NCBI RefSeq assembly: GCF_001969385.1
Contig: NZ_CP014796.1
Coordinates: 1,381,501 to 1,445,500 of the forward strand
Direction of reading: 5' to 3'
DNA length: 64,000 nucleotides
DNA from: Salipiger profundus
GTDB lineage: Bacteria; Pseudomonadota; Alphaproteobacteria; Rhodobacterales; Rhodobacteraceae
Shown here: one piece after another, positions 11,498-45,884 of the stretch
How positions within the stretch are numbered: position 1 is the stretch's first letter
Layout of the letters: each line of letters starts with the position of its first letter
The notes under the pieces: model-generated
The model's database searches: none
Told to the model about the DNA's origin: nothing
Seen by the model: only the letters and a program-made list of their open reading frames with translations
Translations under genes and position numbers: made by a program

Positions 11498-12109
11498 TCA
11501 ATGCAGCGAGATGCGGCGCAGCACGGTCGCCGCCATCAGCTTGAGATCGTAACACAGGCTGCGCCGCCGGGCGTAGATCAGGTCGAGATGCGCCTTGCGC
11601 GGCACGCAGCGGCGGCAATAGACCTCTTCGGTCTCGTCCTTGCTGGAGCACGGCGTCAGCAGCCGCTCCTCGGTGCGGTGAAACGCGAGAGTCGCAAGTC
11701 CGGTCACGCCGGGGCGCGATTTCAGCACCTGCCCGTAGAGCGCCGGAAACATCTCGGTGTAGCGCCGCAGCGGCGGGCGCGGCCCGACGAAACTGATGTC
11801 CCCGCGCAGGATGTTCCAAAGCTGGGGCAGCTCGTCGAGCCGATGGCGCCGCAGGAACCGCCCCGTGCGCGTGATCCGCGCGCTCTTGTCTCCACCCGAC
11901 ACGCCCCGATCCGACGCATCCGGCCGCATGGTGCGGAATTTCCAGAGCAGGAACCCCTCGTCCACCGTCTTCATCCGCTCCGACAGGTAGAAAACGGGCG
12001 CCCCGTCGAGGACCAGGATCGCCAGCGCGATGACGAGAATCACCGGGAAGAACACGACCGAAAGCGCGAGCGCGGCGAAGATGTCGAGAAGACGCTTTGC
12101 CGGTGTCAT
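11498..12109 (-). CDS. Undecaprenyl-phosphate sugar phosphotransferase (short WcaJ/WbaP-type)
   Basis: 203 aa; only the catalytic bacterial sugar transferase domain, without the extra N-terminal membrane bundle of WbaP/WcaJ. One hydrophobic helix (about 12-36) anchors it. Catalytic motifs are present: WKFRTM, RLDELPQLWNILRGDIS, FVGPRPPLR and RPGVTGLA. It transfers the first sugar-1-phosphate to undecaprenyl phosphate to start polysaccharide assembly. Odd feature: the C-terminal part has a cluster of cysteines (TPCSSKDETEEVYCRRC). It is transcribed away from the Wza-like gene, with a 183-bp shared upstream region, and is convergent with the YjbF-like gene. The sugar substrate cannot be told from the sequence. 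Confidence 0.9.
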   Translation of the reverse strand: MTPAKRLLDIFAALALSVVFFPVILVIALAILVLDGAPVFYLSERMKTVDEGFLLWKFRTMRPDASDRGVSGGDKSARITRTGRFLRRHRLDELPQLWNILRGDISFVGPRPPLRRYTEMFPALYGQVLKSRPGVTGLATLAFHRTEERLLTPCSSKDETEEVYCRRCVPRKAHLDLIYARRRSLCYDLKLMAATVLRRISLH

Positions 12110-12292
12110 CGGCCACCGTCCCGTGGGCCGGAGAAATTGTTGGCGAGTTCCTGCCGGAGCCCCTCCGATTGCGGTGTTGGCGTCACGCGTTTTGGTCCAT
12201 TTGTGTTTTCGGGCGACAACGGGCTGTCTATCATCGTCAACAAACGCTAAGAAAGCTCAATATGGCAGAACGAATTTCCGGGGGGATCTGAG

Positions 12293-13411
12293 TTGTTCCG
12301 GCTACAATCCATTTGGGGCGCGCTTGCCGTGGTCGCGCTGATTTCGGGATGCACCCTTCCGCGCGGCGCTGCCCTGCAATCCGAGGTGGTCAGCCAGTCC
12401 GCCTCCGAAAGTCCCACTTTCCAGGTCGTATCGGTTACACGCGCCAACATGCCCGCGATCTCGTCCTGGCCGCGCACCGGATGGGACAACGAATACGGCT
12501 GGCCGGCAACGTCCGAAGGCTCGAATTCGCACGTCATCCAGACCGGCGACAAGGTGGACATCACCATCTGGGACAGCCAGGAAAACTCTCTTCTGACCAA
12601 CGCGACCGAGAAGTCGACGGTGATGAACGCGGTCGAGGTCGGCCCGAACGGCGCGGTCTTCGTGCCTTACGTGGACCAGGTATTCATCCGGGGTCTCACG
12701 CCGCAGATGGCGCGCGGCCGCATTCAGGACCGTCTCGCGCAGATCGCGCCCTCGGCGCAGGTGCAGCTGAGCCTCGTTCAGGGCCGCAGCAACTCGGTCG
12801 AGCTGGTCGGCGGCGTTCAGGCGCCCGGTGCCTACCCCATGCCCTCGCGCAACTACAAGGTGCTCGGCCTCATCGCCGATGGCGGTGGCATCTCGCCCAG
12901 CATTCGTAACCCGCGCGTGCGTCTGATCCGGGGCGGCACCACCTATGAAACCTCGGCCTCGCAACTTCTTGAGAGCGGGCGGCGCAACGCGCTGCTGCGC
13001 CCCGGCGACACCGTCATCATCGAACAGGACGACCACAGCTTCACCGCGCTCGGTGCCTCGGGGCAGGAAGATCTCATCTACTTCCCCAAGGACGACCTGA
13101 GCGCGCTCGAGGCGATTTCGCTCATGGGCGGCCTCGCGGACTCCCGCGCCGACCCGAAGGGCATTCTGGTGCTGCGCGAATACAGCGTCCGCCACCTGCG
13201 GTCCGACGGCAGCGCGCCGAAGATGCAGCAAGTGGTGTTTACCTTTGACCTGACCTCGGCCGACGGGCTCTTCGCCGCACGGAATTTCCGGATCAATCCG
13301 AACGATACCGTGCTTGCCACGGAGTCGCCGATCACCATGGCGCAGACGGTCTTCAGCCTCGTCGGAACTGCCTTCGGACTGACACGGCAGGCCACAACGC
13401 TGGCGAACTGA
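12293..13411 (+). CDS. Polysaccharide export lipoprotein (Wza/KpsD family)
   Basis: 372 aa starting at TTG 12293; no in-frame ATG precedes the signal peptide and a GGGGGG run lies upstream. Lipobox LISGC (Cys20) predicts outer-membrane anchoring. A Poly_export domain follows (HVIQTGDKVDITIWDSQEN through ARGRIQDRLAQIAPSAQVQL), then two SLBB-type beta-grasp segments (SVELVGGVQAPGAYPMPS; FTALGASGQEDLIYFP) and a C-terminal amphipathic stretch that in Wza builds the outer-membrane pore. It should form the export channel for the polymer begun by the adjacent sugar transferase. No Wzc kinase, flippase or polymerase is nearby. A strong terminator follows. Confidence 0.92.
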   Translation: MFRLQSIWGALAVVALISGCTLPRGAALQSEVVSQSASESPTFQVVSVTRANMPAISSWPRTGWDNEYGWPATSEGSNSHVIQTGDKVDITIWDSQENSLLTNATEKSTVMNAVEVGPNGAVFVPYVDQVFIRGLTPQMARGRIQDRLAQIAPSAQVQLSLVQGRSNSVELVGGVQAPGAYPMPSRNYKVLGLIADGGGISPSIRNPRVRLIRGGTTYETSASQLLESGRRNALLRPGDTVIIEQDDHSFTALGASGQEDLIYFPKDDLSALEAISLMGGLADSRADPKGILVLREYSVRHLRSDGSAPKMQQVVFTFDLTSADGLFAARNFRINPNDTVLATESPITMAQTVFSLVGTAFGLTRQATTLAN

Positions 13412-19337: not shown

Positions 19338-20167
19338 CGCAGAATCGCGGCGCGCGTGGCCTCGTCGACCTCGGGGCGCTGACCGAACCACCGCTCGAAC
19401 CCGGGCACGGCCTGGTGGATGAGCATCCCCAGCCCGTCGACCGTCGTGCACCCCTGTTCTTCCGCCACGCGAAGAAGCCGCGTCTGCAACGGCGCGTAGA
19501 CAAGGTCGGTCACCACCGCGCCCCGCCGCAACCCGTCGAGCGGCACCCGGAGTTCGGGTTTTCCGACCATCCCGAGAGACGTGGTGTTCACGACAAGCGC
19601 CGCATCTTCGAGAACGTTGCCCGCCTTGACCCATTCCACGACCGAAAGACGCGATCCGAAGTCCTCGCGAAGCTTCTCGGCCCGCAACTTCGTGCGGTTC
19701 GTGATGCGAATTTCCGGCACGCCGCTGTCGAGAAGCGCAGCAACGACCGCGCGCGCAGCTCCGCCCGCGCCAAGAACCACGGCCGGCCCGGCCTTGGGGT
19801 CCCAATCCGGCGCGCCCTGCCGCAGGTTTTCGAGAAACCCGTAGCCATCGGTGTTGTCGGCATGAATGCCGCCATCGGCGCGAAAGATGATCGTGTTCGC
19901 GGCCCCGATCAGCGTCGCGCGGTCCGAAACCTGGTCGGCGATCTCCATCACCCGCTCCTTGTGCGGGATGGTGACGTTCGCGCCGACGAAACCAAGCTTC
20001 GGAAGCATCCTGAGAGCGGATTCAAAGTCTTCGGGCGCGATGTCCATCGGGATGTAATGCCCGGGTAGCCCGTACTTGCGAAGCCAGTGCCCGTGCAGTT
20101 GCGGCGAGCGTGAGTGCGCCACCGGGTGCCCGATGACGCCGGCGAGCGGAATGCGTGTGTCAGTCAT
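19334..20167 (-). CDS. aroE: Shikimate dehydrogenase (NADP+)
   Basis: 277 aa. Reduces 3-dehydroshikimate to shikimate in aromatic amino acid synthesis. Seen: [17 protein letters not shown] (substrate site), NVTIPHKE with the catalytic lysine, the NADP-binding glycine-rich [19 protein letters not shown] after beta-2, and the C-terminal [20 protein letters not shown] overlaps the maf stop and the stop overlaps the coaE start, so all three are likely translationally coupled. Confidence 0.96.
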
Positions 20168-20763
20168 GCGGCAATGATCTCCCGGACGGACAGAAAGGCA
20201 AGAAGTTCAAGCAGGGGCAGGCCGAGAATGGTGAAGTGATCCCCCTCGATCCGCGCGAAAAGACGAACGCCTTCTTCCTCAAGCTTGTATCCGCCCACCG
20301 AATGGCGCGCGCTTTCCCAGTTACGCGCGAGATAGTCGTCGAGATAGGCTTCCGAGAACTCGCGCATCACCAGACGTGCGACCCCGACGTGGCGCCAGAT
20401 CGGCTCTCCGTTCTCGTAGATCACCGCGCCGGAGTAGAGGTGATGACGCTCGCCGCGCAGACGCATGAGCTGGGCGCGGGCCTCTTCCGGGTCGCGCGGT
20501 TTGGAGAAGACCTCCTTTCCCAGCGCGAGGATCTGGTCACAGCCAAGAACGAAGGCGCCGGGGTTCTTCTGCGAGACGCGCCGCGCCTTATACTCGGCCA
20601 GCGCGTCGGCCATGTCGCGCGGCCCGGCCCCTTCCTGGGCAAGTGAGTCGCGGATCGCGGATTCGTCGATCCGCGCGACCTCGATTCGGTGCGGAACGCC
20701 CGCTGAAGTGAGCAAATCGGTCCGGATCTGCGAGCCGGAAGCGAGGATGAAGGGCGTGGACAT
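20164..20763 (-). CDS. Maf-family nucleotide pyrophosphatase (YceF-like)
   Basis: 199 aa. Maf fold: N-terminal [13 protein letters not shown], catalytic region [14 protein letters not shown], and [29 protein letters not shown] stretch. The DQ in the third motif resembles YceF (7-methyl-GTP preference) rather than YhdE, which has DT; this sub-assignment is inference. Hydrolyses aberrant or modified NTPs to NMPs. First gene left of the putative origin, reading away from it; its start codon overlaps a TTTTCCACA DnaA-box-like sequence. Confidence 0.9.
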
Positions 20764-21294
20764 GTGGAAAAACCTGTCGACATCTGCAGGGTCTTGTCAG
20801 GGGATGGTTCTGCGGAAAATCCCGATCACATGCAAGCCGGTGGAAAACCCGGCCCTCCCAGGTCGATTCGTGCCGATTCCAGCACATGTGGGAAAGAATA
20901 AGTCCGAGCTGCGGGGGACTCACCCCGCGTCTGACTTCTACCAAAGTTGTCCATAGGTGCGAGTTGATAGTTAACTTGCCATCAGACAACGAAAAATCTC
21001 GATTCATGTTTTGTTAAGAAATCTCTATCTACAAAGTTATCCACAAGATGATCAGGATGGGACAACTTCGGGGACAGACCGATAATCCACCGAAAATCGG
21101 CGCACAAACTCTTCATCATCCTTTCTATCTTTAAACTTGAGAGTGGCTCCGCCCGCTCATCTCGGGAAAATCACCGGCAAGATTGACTCAAGCTTCCCGG
21201 ATGACTAATTCCCTTCTCCAACGCCCGTCCGGGTGTGTGTATTTCCCAGAGACAGCCAGTACGGGGCCGCCAGCTCGGCCCGGAAGGATCCATT
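20764..21294. other. oriC: Putative chromosomal replication origin (oriC)
   Basis: A 531-bp gene-free stretch between divergent maf and rho. It is clearly more AT-rich than its surroundings, especially 20960-21050 and 21105-21140. It carries one perfect DnaA box (TTATCCACA, 21037-21045), a 7/9 tandem partner 12 bp away (CTATCTACA, 21025-21033), TTTTCCACA on the minus strand at 20763-20771, TTGTCCATA at 20947-20955, a minus-strand TTTCCCACA at 20887-20895 and TAATCCACC at 21083-21091. Five GANTC methylation motifs lie at 20865, 20875, 20917, 21001 and 21185. The context matches alphaproteobacterial origins (maf/aroE/coaE/dnaQ on one side, parAB-parS on the other), and genes on both sides run outward. 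The rho promoter and leader must also lie here. No open frame or RNA gene was recognised. Confidence 0.72.
21037..21045 (+). promoter_or_regulatory. Perfect DnaA box TTATCCACA
   Basis: Exact consensus DnaA-binding nonamer within the AT-rich part of the maf-rho gap; a degenerate copy sits 12 bp upstream in the same orientation. Confidence 0.8.
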
Positions 21295-22566
21295 ATGAGC
21301 AACGAGACGCTCAACCTCTCCGATCTGAAGGCGAAGAGCCCGAAAGATCTGCTCGCGATGGCCGAAGAGCTCGAGATCGAGAACGCTTCGACCATGCGCA
21401 AAGGGGAGATGATGTTCCAAATTCTCCGCGAGCGCGCGGACGAAGGCTGGGAGGTCTCCGGCGACGGGGTGCTCGAGGTGCTTCAGGACGGCTTCGGCTT
21501 CCTGCGCTCGCCCGAGGCGAACTATCTGCCGGGCCCGGACGACATCTACGTATCGCCGGACATGATCCGGAAGTACTCGCTGCGCACTGGCGACTCCGTC
21601 GAAGGGGAAATCCGCGCACCTGATGGCGAAGAGCGCTACTTCGCGCTCGTCGACGTCGCGAAGATCAACTTCGAGGACCCCGACCGAGCGCGTCACAAGA
21701 TCGCCTTCGACAACCTCACGCCGCTCTATCCCGACGAGCGGCTCAAGATGGAAATCGAAGACCCGACGATCAAGGACAAGTCCGCCCGGATCATCGACCT
21801 CGTCGCACCGATCGGGAAGGGGCAGCGCTCGCTCATCGTGGCGCCGCCGCGGACGGGTAAGACCGTCCTGCTGCAGAACATCGCCAGCTCGATCGAGAAG
21901 AACCACCCCGAGTGCTACCTGATCGTCCTGCTGATCGACGAGCGCCCGGAAGAGGTGACCGACATGCAGCGGTCGGTGAAGGGCGAGGTGATCTCCTCGA
22001 CCTTCGACGAACCCGCCACACGGCACGTTGCCGTGTCCGAGATGGTCATCGAAAAGGCCAAGCGCCTGGTCGAACATAAACGAGATGTTGTTATCCTTCT
22101 CGATTCGATCACTAGACTTGGTCGTGCCTTCAACACCGTGGTGCCGTCGTCGGGCAAGGTTCTGACCGGTGGTGTCGACGCGAACGCCCTTCAGCGGCCG
22201 AAGCGTTTCTTCGGTGCCGCACGGAACATTGAAGAGGGCGGGTCTCTGACCATCATCGCGACCGCGCTGATCGACACTGGCTCGCGGATGGACGAGGTGA
22301 TCTTCGAGGAGTTCAAGGGCACCGGCAACTCCGAGATCGTCCTCGACCGGAAGATCGCGGACAAGCGCGTGTTCCCGGCCATCGACATTCTCAAGTCGGG
22401 CACCCGGAAAGAGGACCTGCTCATCGACAAGAGCGACCTGCAGAAGACCTTTGTCCTGCGGCGTATTCTCAACCCGATGGGCACAACCGACGCGGTCGAA
22501 TTCCTGCTGTCGAAGCTGAAGCAGACCAAGACCAACTCGGAATTCTTCGACTCGATGAACAGCTAG
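21295..22566 (+). CDS. rho: Transcription termination factor Rho
   Basis: 423 aa from ATG 21295 with GGAAGGA 7 bp upstream. Hexameric RNA helicase. Domains: N-terminal helical bundle ([21 protein letters not shown]), cold-shock-like RNA-binding fold (about 48-120; [22 protein letters not shown]), then RecA-type ATPase with Walker [10 protein letters not shown] (about 182-190), Walker [16 protein letters not shown]-loop [13 protein letters not shown] and R-loop GTGNSE. Length is normal (E. coli 419). It is the first gene to the right of the putative origin; the 5' leader is inside that region. mnmE starts 19 bp after its stop. Confidence 0.98.
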
Positions 22567-23873: not shown

Positions 23874-23889
23874 TGTTTCACGTGAAACA
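23874..23889. other. parS: Perfect parS site at the mnmG translation start
   Basis: TGTTTCACGTGAAACA, an exact 16-bp palindrome matching the universal parS. It sits between the AAGGAG ribosome-binding site (23868-23873) and the GTG start at 23882, whose G is the ninth base of the palindrome. Confidence 0.95.
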
Positions 23890-25750: not shown

Positions 25751-26370
25751 GCGTTCTGGATGATCGGCTACCGACGCTTGATGTTTCACGTGAAACACTG
25801 GCGCGCCTTCGGAAACTTTCGGACCTCCTGAATAAATGGTCTCCGAAGATCAACCTTGTCGCAAAGGGAACGCTTGAGGCAAGTTGGGACAGGCATGTCC
25901 TGGATTCAGCTCAGGTCTTCGATATTCCCAAACAACGCGAGGGGCACTGGGTGGACCTCGGGGCAGGGGGCGGCTTTCCCGGTCTCGTGGTGGCAATTCT
26001 TGCGACCGAACTGGCGCCAAACCTTCGCGTTACGCTGGTCGAAAGTGACCGTCGGAAATCTGTGTTTTTGCGGACCGCGCTTCGGGAAACCGGTGTGAAG
26101 GCTGATGTCATTGCGGACAGGATCGAACGCATTGACCCGTTGAATGCGGATATTCTTAGTGCGCGTGCGTTGGCCGATCTTTCGACGCTTCTGTCATTCG
26201 CGGATCGTCATCTGGCCCCGAGTGGTGAGGCTGTGTTTCTCAAGGGAGCCAACTGGGAAAAAGAGGTCGCAGAGGCGCAGGAATCGTGGAACTTCAGCTT
26301 CACTAAGCGTAGAAGCATTACAGACCCCAACGCAGTCGTTCTGTCTATCGGAGCTCTCACTCATGTCTGA
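25747..26370 (+). CDS. rsmG: 16S rRNA (guanine527-N7)-methyltransferase RsmG (GidB)
   Basis: 207 aa. SAM-dependent methyltransferase of 16S rRNA G527; loss gives low-level streptomycin resistance in several bacteria. Motif [11 protein letters not shown] (about 69-78), [13 protein letters not shown], and the family-typical DVSRETL near residue 12, which is the translation of an embedded parS site. ATG overlaps the mnmG stop by 4 bp, and its own 3' end overlaps the parA start by 8 bp. Confidence 0.96.
25782..25797. other. parS: Perfect parS site inside rsmG
   Basis: Second exact TGTTTCACGTGAAACA, read in frame as V-S-R-E-T within the DVSRETL segment of RsmG. It is about 1.9 kb from the first site and 0.6 kb upstream of parA. 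Confidence 0.95.
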
Positions 26371-27172
26371 CTCGTCGCGCCCCGGCGGCCCGAAGATTAT
26401 TGCAATCGCAAACCAGAAGGGCGGCGTGGGAAAGACCACGACCACCATCAACCTCGGGGCCGCTCTGGCCGAGAAGAACCTGAATGTCCTGGTGGTCGAT
26501 CTGGACCCGCAGGGCAACTCGTCTACGGGTCTTGGGATCGAGCCGACAGATCGCCAATACACGGCGTATGAGCTTCTGCTCGATGATGTTCCGATGGAGG
26601 ATGTGATCCTCAGGACAGAGCAGCCGAACCTCGACCTGATCCCGGCGACCGTCGATCTAAGCTCGGCGGATATCGAGCTTGTGGCGAATGAAAAGCGGAG
26701 CTTCCTTCTGCGCGAGGCGTTGCGTCAGGCTGCGATGAACGCTCTGAATTACGATTACGTCCTGATCGATTGCCCCCCTTCTCTGAACCTCCTGACGGTG
26801 AACGCGATGGTTGCCGCGCACTCGATTCTGGTGCCGCTTCAGAGCGAGTTCTTCGCGCTCGAGGGTTTGTCGCAGCTCATGCTGACGGTTCGGGAAGTCC
26901 GCCAGAGCGCGAACCCGGACCTGCGGATCGAGGGGGTCGTTCTGACGATGTATGATGCGCGGAACAACCTGTCGCGTCAGGTCGAGGACGACGCCCGCGA
27001 AAACCTTGGAGACCTTGTGTTTTCGACGGTGATCCCGCGCAACGTGAGGGTGAGTGAGGCGCCGTCCTTCGCGATGCCCGTGCTGAGCTATGACGCGCAG
27101 TCCAAGGGTGCGCTTGCGTACCGGGCGCTGGCGGACGAGTTGCTGCAGAAGAACGCCAAGATCGCCGCCTGA
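26363..27172 (+). CDS. parA: Chromosome-partitioning ATPase ParA
   Basis: 269 aa from ATG 26363, which overlaps the rsmG 3' end. Deviant Walker [12 protein letters not shown] (about 17-27) with the signature lysine, VVDLDPQGN, and [15 protein letters not shown]. It lacks the N-terminal HTH of plasmid ParA type Ia, so it is the chromosomal Soj type. It forms the nucleoid-bound ATPase gradient that pulls ParB-parS complexes. parB follows after 23 bp. Confidence 0.98.
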
Positions 27173-27195: not shown

Positions 27196-28110
27196 ATGGC
27201 AGAGAAAAAGGAACCTCGCCGGGGACTCGGCCGCGGCTTGTCGGCGCTGATGTCGGACGTCGACATCGCACCCGCACAAGACGCTGAAACCGAGACCGCC
27301 AAGAGCCCCGACAGAATGATTCCCATCGAGAAGATCGTCCCGAACAAGGACCAGCCGCGTCGTACGTTCACGGACGAGCAGCTCAAGGAGCTGTCGGATT
27401 CGATCCGCACCAAGGGGATCCTGCAGCCGATCATCGTGCGTCCGTCGCCGGGCGATCCGGGCATGTTCGAGATCGTCGCCGGCGAACGCCGCTGGCGCGC
27501 GGCGCAGCTGGCGAAGCAGCATGAGGTTCCCGTCCTCGTCCGCGATCTTGACGATCAGGAGATGCTCGAGGTCGCGATCATCGAGAACATCCAGCGCGCC
27601 GATCTGAACTCGATCGAAGAGGCGGCCGGCTACAAGCAGCTGATGTTCAAGTTCGGCCACACGCAGGAAAAGATCGCGGAAGCGCTCGGCAAGAGCCGCA
27701 GCCACATCGCAAACCTTCTTCGGCTTCTCAACCTTCCGGAGAGCGTGCAAGAGCATGTTCGAAACGGGGCGCTGAGTGCGGGGCACGCGAGAACTCTTGT
27801 GACCGCTCAAGACCCCGAAGCGATGGCGCAGCAGATCATCACCAAGAAGCTTTCCGTGCGCCAGGCAGAAGCGCTTCTGCGCTCCGAGGGAGACGCGTCG
27901 AAGCCCAAGATGCGCCCGGCGGCGGCATCCGCAGCGACTGCGGAAAAGGATGCGGACACGCGGGCGCTCGAGGGCGACCTGTCTGCCGCGCTTGGTATGA
28001 AGGTGACTGTAACGCACAAGCCGGGCGGCGAGTCGGGAAAGCTGACGATTGCCTACGAGAGCTTTGACGAGCTGGATTCCCTGTGCAGCGTCCTGAGCGC
28101 CGCGCGCTGA
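27196..28110 (+). CDS. parB: Chromosome-partitioning protein ParB
   Basis: 304 aa. N-terminal ParA-interacting basic segment (PRRGLGRGLSALM), CTPase/ParB-N domain with IVPNKDQPRRTF and the arginine-rich GERRWRAAQLAK motif (from about 95), then the HTH that reads parS (QEKIAEALGKSRSHIANLLRLL) and a C-terminal dimerisation domain. The two perfect parS sites lie 1.4 and 3.3 kb upstream. A good terminator follows. Confidence 0.98.
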   Translation: MAEKKEPRRGLGRGLSALMSDVDIAPAQDAETETAKSPDRMIPIEKIVPNKDQPRRTFTDEQLKELSDSIRTKGILQPIIVRPSPGDPGMFEIVAGERRWRAAQLAKQHEVPVLVRDLDDQEMLEVAIIENIQRADLNSIEEAAGYKQLMFKFGHTQEKIAEALGKSRSHIANLLRLLNLPESVQEHVRNGALSAGHARTLVTAQDPEAMAQQIITKKLSVRQAEALLRSEGDASKPKMRPAAASAATAEKDADTRALEGDLSAALGMKVTVTHKPGGESGKLTIAYESFDELDSLCSVLSAAR

Positions 28111-45397: not shown

Positions 45398-45404
45398 GCG
45401 CTGG

Positions 45405-45740
45405 TCAGGCGGCGAGCCTTTCGGGCTGTTCGCTCAGGAACGTGCCGCGCGAGCGGGCGTAGAGTGACAGGATGGCATCGACGTCGATCGGGGCGGTGGA
45501 GCCGCTTCGGGCGGCAATCTCGCCCGACTGGCAGCAGTCGGCGAGCGCCGAGAAGCCGAGGTTGAGCGCGCTGCCCTTCAGGAAGTGCAGCTTCTCTTCC
45601 ATCTCGGCGGGCTGAGCCATGGCGCCGGGCAGATCGGCGAGTGTGGTTTCGACCTCTTTCAGGAAGAGATCGACCACTTCGTGAAAATTCTCTGCGCCGA
45701 TTTCATCCCGCAGTTCCGCGATCCGGGTCCAGTCGATCAT
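45405..45740 (-). CDS. Histidine phosphotransfer (Hpt) domain protein
   Basis: 111 aa, a lone Hpt four-helix bundle. His52 in LHFLKGSALNLGFSALADCC is the phosphoacceptor, and the following KGSALNLG is the Hpt hallmark. AGGAGG precedes the ATG. Divergent from the receiver-SpoIIE phosphatase, 144 bp apart, which suggests that the pair forms a phosphorelay. No hybrid kinase is adjacent. Confidence 0.92.
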   Translation of the reverse strand: MIDWTRIAELRDEIGAENFHEVVDLFLKEVETTLADLPGAMAQPAEMEEKLHFLKGSALNLGFSALADCCQSGEIAARSGSTAPIDVDAILSLYARSRGTFLSEQPERLAA

Positions 45741-45884
45741 GGCGCACCTCCTGATCGTCAGGGGTAGGCGGGAAAGATGAAGAAAGTCTTTTCTCCCGAC
45801 GAGATCCGGTTTGCGCGGCGAAAGCCCGCGTTAACCTGCGCGCGCTAGACCTGCCCCGGAACAGGCTGTCGATCAGGAGCGCGC

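Follow-up and report, generated by a model that had tools for sequence, protein, structure and literature searches.

The interval between maf and rho on the main chromosome of a marine Salipiger-like bacterium is, with a probability that we put at about 95% from its sequence features, the replication origin oriC of that chromosome. It spans C1:1402264–1402794, or positions 20764–21294 of the window, i.e., the whole stretch of 64,000 nucleotides that was analysed (C1:1381501–1445500 of a 5.42 Mb genome in nine contigs, C1 having 4,609,584 bases). The origin proper appears to be shorter, from about 20811 to 21150, because 21183–21294 is predicted to be promoter and leader of rho and the left edge coincides in part with a probable maf promoter. 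The origin call of the original prediction is supported by the sampled GC skew, a conserved array of DnaA boxes, and local skew minima in relatives. The maf/rho origin is ordinary in kind; what is new is its boundary, the conserved box map, an apparent loss of neighbouring genes, and the rho leader.

Gene borders and base skew

The interval exactly fills the gap from the maf start codon to that of rho (Table 1). Genes on both sides read outward, as had been predicted, with maf, aroE, coaE, and dnaQ on the minus strand and rho, mnmE, mnmG, rsmG, parA, and parB on the plus strand, and the flanking maf-aroE-coaE-dnaQ and parAB-parS neighbourhoods, including the parS sites, were located as claimed. 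The two exact parS sites are 2.6 and 4.5 kb away from the interval, and the 800 kb sampled beyond the window contains no parS with up to two mismatches. The AT-richness ascribed to the interval is real: its G+C content is 51% versus 65% for the window, whose lowest 200-base G+C (in 50-base steps) begins inside it, at 20951. Its description as the only long gene-free stretch stood where one other candidate gap was concerned (45398–45884), which is occupied by an Hpt-domain gene. GANTC sites number five in the interval, where ~2 are expected at its composition (a hand estimate), and 94 in the window, in which a tRNA scan found no tRNA. By maf, the closest named relatives are Salipiger species, and 19 of the 60 other genomes searched were assigned to the same genus. 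Elsewhere in the window, 11498–13411 has a minus-strand match to a bacterial sugar transferase and a plus-strand match to a polysaccharide export protein, which suggests a small exopolysaccharide locus.

For GC skew, 40 stretches of 20 kb were sampled and the window was added as three pieces, which makes 43 segments; the skew and box-cluster sampling together cover 864 kb, or ~19% of the contig. In the left arm, 21 of 23 segments are negative and two are zero to four decimals; in the right arm, 19 of 20 are positive, the sole exception being C1:3200001–3220000, which is negative. The sign switches back between 3.70 and 3.80 Mb, where both samples are near zero and where the arm boundary was placed after the data were seen; the antipode of the maf/rho site, at 3.707 Mb, falls near this return switch. 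Across the contiguous 124 kb, the cumulative G–C minimum is at window position 19958, 0.8 kb from the interval, with a block-bootstrap 95% range of −5.0 to +4.0 kb when the switch is assumed at the site. The cumulative-skew minimum that the original prediction expected here was therefore found both in the samples (~19% of the contig) and across the uninterrupted 124 kb, together with the near-antipode return switch of an oriC and with one contrary segment.

Similar local minima accompany the site in two relatives, at distances computed with their own maf–rho gap lengths. In G022, the minimum within a contiguous 120 kb is at 3475899, with the maf start at 3477847, i.e., 1.0 kb from the interval; 3 of its 16 samples (1, 2600001, and 3300001) have an unexpected sign. 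In G015, the minimum within a contiguous 80 kb is at 1595827, with the maf start at 1597810, i.e., 1.4 kb from the interval; 16 stretches were tabulated on a contig of 2.9 Mb from a 5.5 Mb genome, perhaps not the whole chromosome. One G015 stretch ~20 kb from the origin, C1:1617501–1637500, has 47% G+C, the other tabulated stretches having 61–67%.

The orientation of the motif GGGNAGGG fits the arms in most sampled segments. It was dropped as a fine locator because its orientation switches left of the site: window 1–20763 (the 20.7 kb left of the site) holds five forward copies and one reverse, against the left-arm rule, while skew there stays negative. The segment C1:3200001–3220000 is opposite to its arm in both skew and GGGNAGGG orientation (0 forward, 8 reverse), and is perhaps a recent inversion or inserted DNA.

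Table 1. Features in and around the maf–rho interval (window positions; slot counts refer to 23 aligned sequences).
Feature	Position	Strand	Remarks
parS-like site	15981		one mismatch
maf	20164–20763	minus	left border of interval
DnaA box TTTTCCACA	20763–20771	minus	one mismatch; overlaps maf start codon
Probable maf promoter	20807–20835	minus	TTGCAT, 17 bases, CAGAAC; from sequence; contains weak slot 20811
Weak DnaA-box slots	20811, 20839, 20887, 20910 (20811–20918)	minus	mean mismatches 2.5–2.9
DnaA-box slot TTGTCCATA	20947–20955	plus	≤2 mismatches in 11/23
AT-rich spacer between box groups	20960–21024		sequence variable; within the window's lowest 200-base G+C
Tandem DnaA boxes CTATCTACA (21025) and TTATCCACA (21037)	21025–21045	plus	12 bases apart
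Weak DnaA-box slot	21058–21066	minus	degenerate here; ≤2 mismatches in 10/23
DnaA-box slot TAATCCACC	21083–21091	plus	conserved; mean 2.04 mismatches, ≤2 in 20/23
Candidate DNA-unwinding element	21104–21150		mean G+C 0.27–0.29
rho promoter	21183–21211	plus	−35 TTGACT 21183–21188, 17 bases, −10 TAATTC 21206–21211
rho-leader hairpin	21221–21236	plus	6-pair stem; GTCC loop at 21227–21230
Putative second rho-leader hairpin	21264–21281 (region 21264–21288)	plus	just 5′ of ribosome-binding site GGAAGGA
rho	21295–22566	plus	right border of interval
parS	23874–23889		exact; second exact site at 25782
parA	26369–27172	plus	gene match
parB	27196–28110	plus	gene match
parS-like site	50237		two mismatches

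DnaA boxes, AT-rich segments, and gene order in relatives

The predicted perfect DnaA box with several degenerate ones was recovered as seven boxes with at most two mismatches starting inside the interval, the exact one at 21037(+) included; none of 500 dinucleotide shuffles reached seven (mean 1.2). The lone exact box is weak evidence, present in 3 of the 500 shuffles, and means little because the genome has 8 exact boxes versus 11 matches to a reversed control pattern. The cluster is another matter: its 500-base score is 12 at the interval, the best elsewhere in the sampled stretches being 7, and within the contiguous 124 kb the interval ranks first, followed by a separate cluster of score 4.

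The boxes recur in relatives. Two partly overlapping sets of genomes, from searches contributing 30 and 80 loci, gave 110 loci (L054–L163), of which 102 with maf and rho matches were measured; once loci with a gap above 1.4 kb, segments shorter than 450 bases, and identical copies had been set aside, 68 unique segments remained for box counting. Boxes with at most one mismatch number 163 in the first 420 bases upstream of maf in these 68, versus a mean of 5.6 and a maximum of 12 in 40 rounds of shuffling, and at least one such box is present in 64 of them. The array of an oriC, above chance and kept in relatives, is thus found here.

Individual slots were followed in 25 short-gap segments hand-picked out of 35 unique ones, or 23 rows after near-duplicates were dropped, against a background of 5.75 mismatches (sd 0.80). 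The start of the interval, GTGGAAAA, is largely kept in the 25 rows. Slot 21037 is the best conserved of the array, with a mean mismatch of 1.48 and at most two mismatches in 19 of 23 sequences, and slot 20910, degenerate in this genome, is near consensus in some relatives. The tandem pair described in the original prediction is present, but its conservation resides mainly in the downstream box, the upstream slot at 21025 being weak (mean mismatch 3.35; at most two in 4 of 23), so that a reading of the pair as a conserved tandem is weakened. In 3 of the 25 rows (L063, L082, and L107), the one-mismatch box is the upstream tandem slot and the downstream slot has five mismatches.

An AT-rich segment adjoins the boxes, as in a bacterial oriC. 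Averaged over the 23 rows, 21104–21150 is the most AT-rich and least stable part of the interval, while in this genome alone 21004–21053 is slightly less stable. Similarly, in Bacillus subtilis oriC, DnaA boxes adjoin an AT-rich tract, and the accessible text of PMC8287927 describes a basal unwinding system of DnaA boxes and DnaA-trios, with three or more trios no more than 16 bases from a box. Here, no convincing trio run was seen by eye: the NTN triplets that follow box 21083 begin 17 bases from it, beyond the 16-base limit.

The distance between maf and rho falls into three classes, of ~500–590 bases, ~900–1340 bases, and ~2.8–3.7 kb, assigned by gap length alone except at three annotated loci. 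At two of these, L102 and L112, of the ~900–1340-base class, hemJ lies between the boxes and rho; at the third, L144, of the ~2.8–3.7 kb class, ppsR, hemE, and hemJ lie between maf and rho. These classes bear on a rival account, in which the interval is a mere divergent promoter region of maf and rho, its boxes are DnaA-responsive regulatory sites, and the true origin lies within a few kilobases. DnaA boxes are able to regulate genes, the interval has a probable maf promoter on one side and a clear rho promoter on the other, and the uncertainty of the skew minimum is several kilobases. This account is nonetheless very unlikely, since no other box cluster in the 124 kb scores as high as that of the interval (12 against 4), a local skew minimum lies less than 1.5 kb from the interval in three genomes, and the boxes stay next to maf where hemJ intervenes in the longer gap (L102, L112).

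An origin at the interval also has to be set against the places where origins are known in other bacteria. The origin adjoins dnaA in many of them. In Caulobacter, the experimentally identified origin adjoins hemE (accessible text of PMC1914354), and both Caulobacter crescentus Cori and its Rickettsia counterpart lie between hemE and COG1806 (ppsR). The accessible text of PMC6699656, PMC8287927, PMC1914354, and PMC7561715 bears out this classical flank and the criteria applied here. In the present genome, hemE is at C1:866529–867545, ~535 kb off, and the nearest skew samples (800001 and 900001) are both negative; dnaA is 47 kb from the interval, and no comparable box cluster surrounds it. We therefore rejected an origin next to either gene, and consider it scarcely credible that the origin moved with hemE or adjoins dnaA. 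Three further DnaA-domain matches (C1:2634755, C3:63826, and C8:23210; L002–L004), with equal scores of 33.2 bits and equal frames of 297 residues, are perhaps copies of a transposon helper ATPase.

With oriC placed at the maf–rho interval, its likeness to the Caulobacter and Rickettsia origins consists in DnaA boxes and an AT-rich segment. The ppsR–hemE gap of L144, which has a 3 kb maf–rho gap, matches the classical origin position because the order there is maf, ppsR, hemE, hemJ, rho, and is the positional counterpart. The difference is in the flanks: maf and rho border the present origin directly, without hemE and COG1806, because ppsR and hemJ are unmatched and hemE is far away (ppsR has no match in this genome, with controls that worked; hemJ has no match with one relative's protein as query, a search run with no control). 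The CtrA consensus is TTAA-N7-TTAA and that of IHF is WATCARNNNNTTR; of these Caulobacter-type elements, no CtrA pair site was found in the window when exact pairs were scored, and no IHF-like site came within one mismatch. Gene order suggests a Caulobacter-type origin minus its ppsR, hemE, and hemJ neighbours, the presumed direction of change, namely loss of neighbours, being read from gene order.

Ori-Finder predictions of oriC exist for 101 closed Rhodobacteraceae genomes (PMC6699656). The features used there according to the accessible text (a skew minimum, a local GC minimum, DnaA boxes, and proximity to parAB) are all present at the maf–rho interval. The same text names no flanking genes but parAB and gives no box alignment, in which it differs from the present map. 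No description of a maf–rho-bordered origin or of the rho leader was found in the accessible text of the four papers or among the titles listed from the largely open-access literature searched.

Promoter and leader of rho

The edges of the interval carry signals of the flanking genes. On the left, TTGCAT-17-CAGAAC is a probable maf promoter, its hexamers and spacing kept by eye in most alignment rows. On the right, the last ~110 bases (21183–21294) are, as judged from sequence, promoter and leader of rho, not origin. In an alignment of 44 hand-picked rows, the TA of the −10 element is invariant and the TTGAC of the −35 element is kept in at least 90%; the transcription start is predicted from these elements.

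A hairpin with a G-T-pyrimidine-C loop and at least four pairs is present in 52 of the 68 unique rho leaders (from L054–L130 and L162), versus an average of 1.8 in mononucleotide shuffles and 0–6 for five other loop patterns. By contrast with this count, the covariation alignment (44 of the 68 leaders) leans towards structure, because 12 of the 16 leaders without the hairpin are among the 24 that it omits. In these 44 rows, pairing is seen in 75.3% of hairpin cells (54.7% in shuffles) and covariation scores 0.600 (0.173 in shuffles), with 0 of 500 shuffles as high in either case; when slid, the covariation score is at most 0.19. All seven pairs change on both sides, but neither this measure nor the number of pair types settles the matter (40 and 70 of 500 shuffles, respectively, reach the observed values), and the outermost pair is formed in only 6 of the 44 rows. 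The whole leader folds no better than shuffles (z −0.28), and therefore the case for the hairpin rests on covariation and recurrence. Hairpins resembling the second one of the leader were seen by eye in relatives; pairing of the leader's 5′ end with the ribosome-binding site in the predicted fold was not apparently conserved by eye. None of the 25 leaders of the long-gap class has a stem of at least four pairs on a G-T-pyrimidine-C loop.

The one strong match of a promoter-plus-leader model in this genome lies upstream of rho, with E 5e-13; the next two have E 0.7 and 1.0, among the 150 of 1000 first-look candidates that were scored. At E up to 1, the model matches 36 of 61 genomes, many of which supplied model rows. 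All 28 genomes with E below 0.001 belong to the 37 of the same family; the other nine of this family comprise three weak matches beside maf/rho (0.02–0.03), one match only at 0.9, and five without a match. The best match in the 24 genomes of other families has E 0.048. A search of the window against Rfam at gathering thresholds gives no hit, and even with E allowed to reach 1 none appears in 20700–21400. The odds are roughly even that the right part is a structured RNA leader of rho, specific to the family and not yet catalogued, with one strong copy per genome, a G-T-pyrimidine-C hairpin where the transcript presumably begins, probable control of Rho synthesis, and a possible link to the origin. 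The leader would probably control Rho synthesis by, e.g., attenuation or mRNA decay. The rho promoter adjoins the candidate unwinding segment, and transcription of rho could for that reason respond to, or act upon, the state of the origin.

Proposed initiation and significance

In the proposed course of initiation, DnaA would occupy two boxes, the strong one at 21037 and the conserved one at 21083, and would spread to the weaker slots at 21025 and on the maf side. The AT-rich segment 21104–21150, or alternatively 20960–21053, would melt, and helicase loading would set up two forks, one leaving leftwards through dnaQ and the other rightwards through parAB. Segregation of the new copies would fall to ParB at the parS sites close by, and the sequence from 21183 on would serve rho expression, not initiation.

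The origin of a Salipiger-type chromosome is narrowed in this way to ~340 bases, with a conserved box map. The conserved rho leader, which could otherwise be mistaken for origin sequence, is separated from it. The comparison with relatives suggests that a classical alphaproteobacterial origin could have stayed in position as ppsR, hemE, and hemJ disappeared from beside it.
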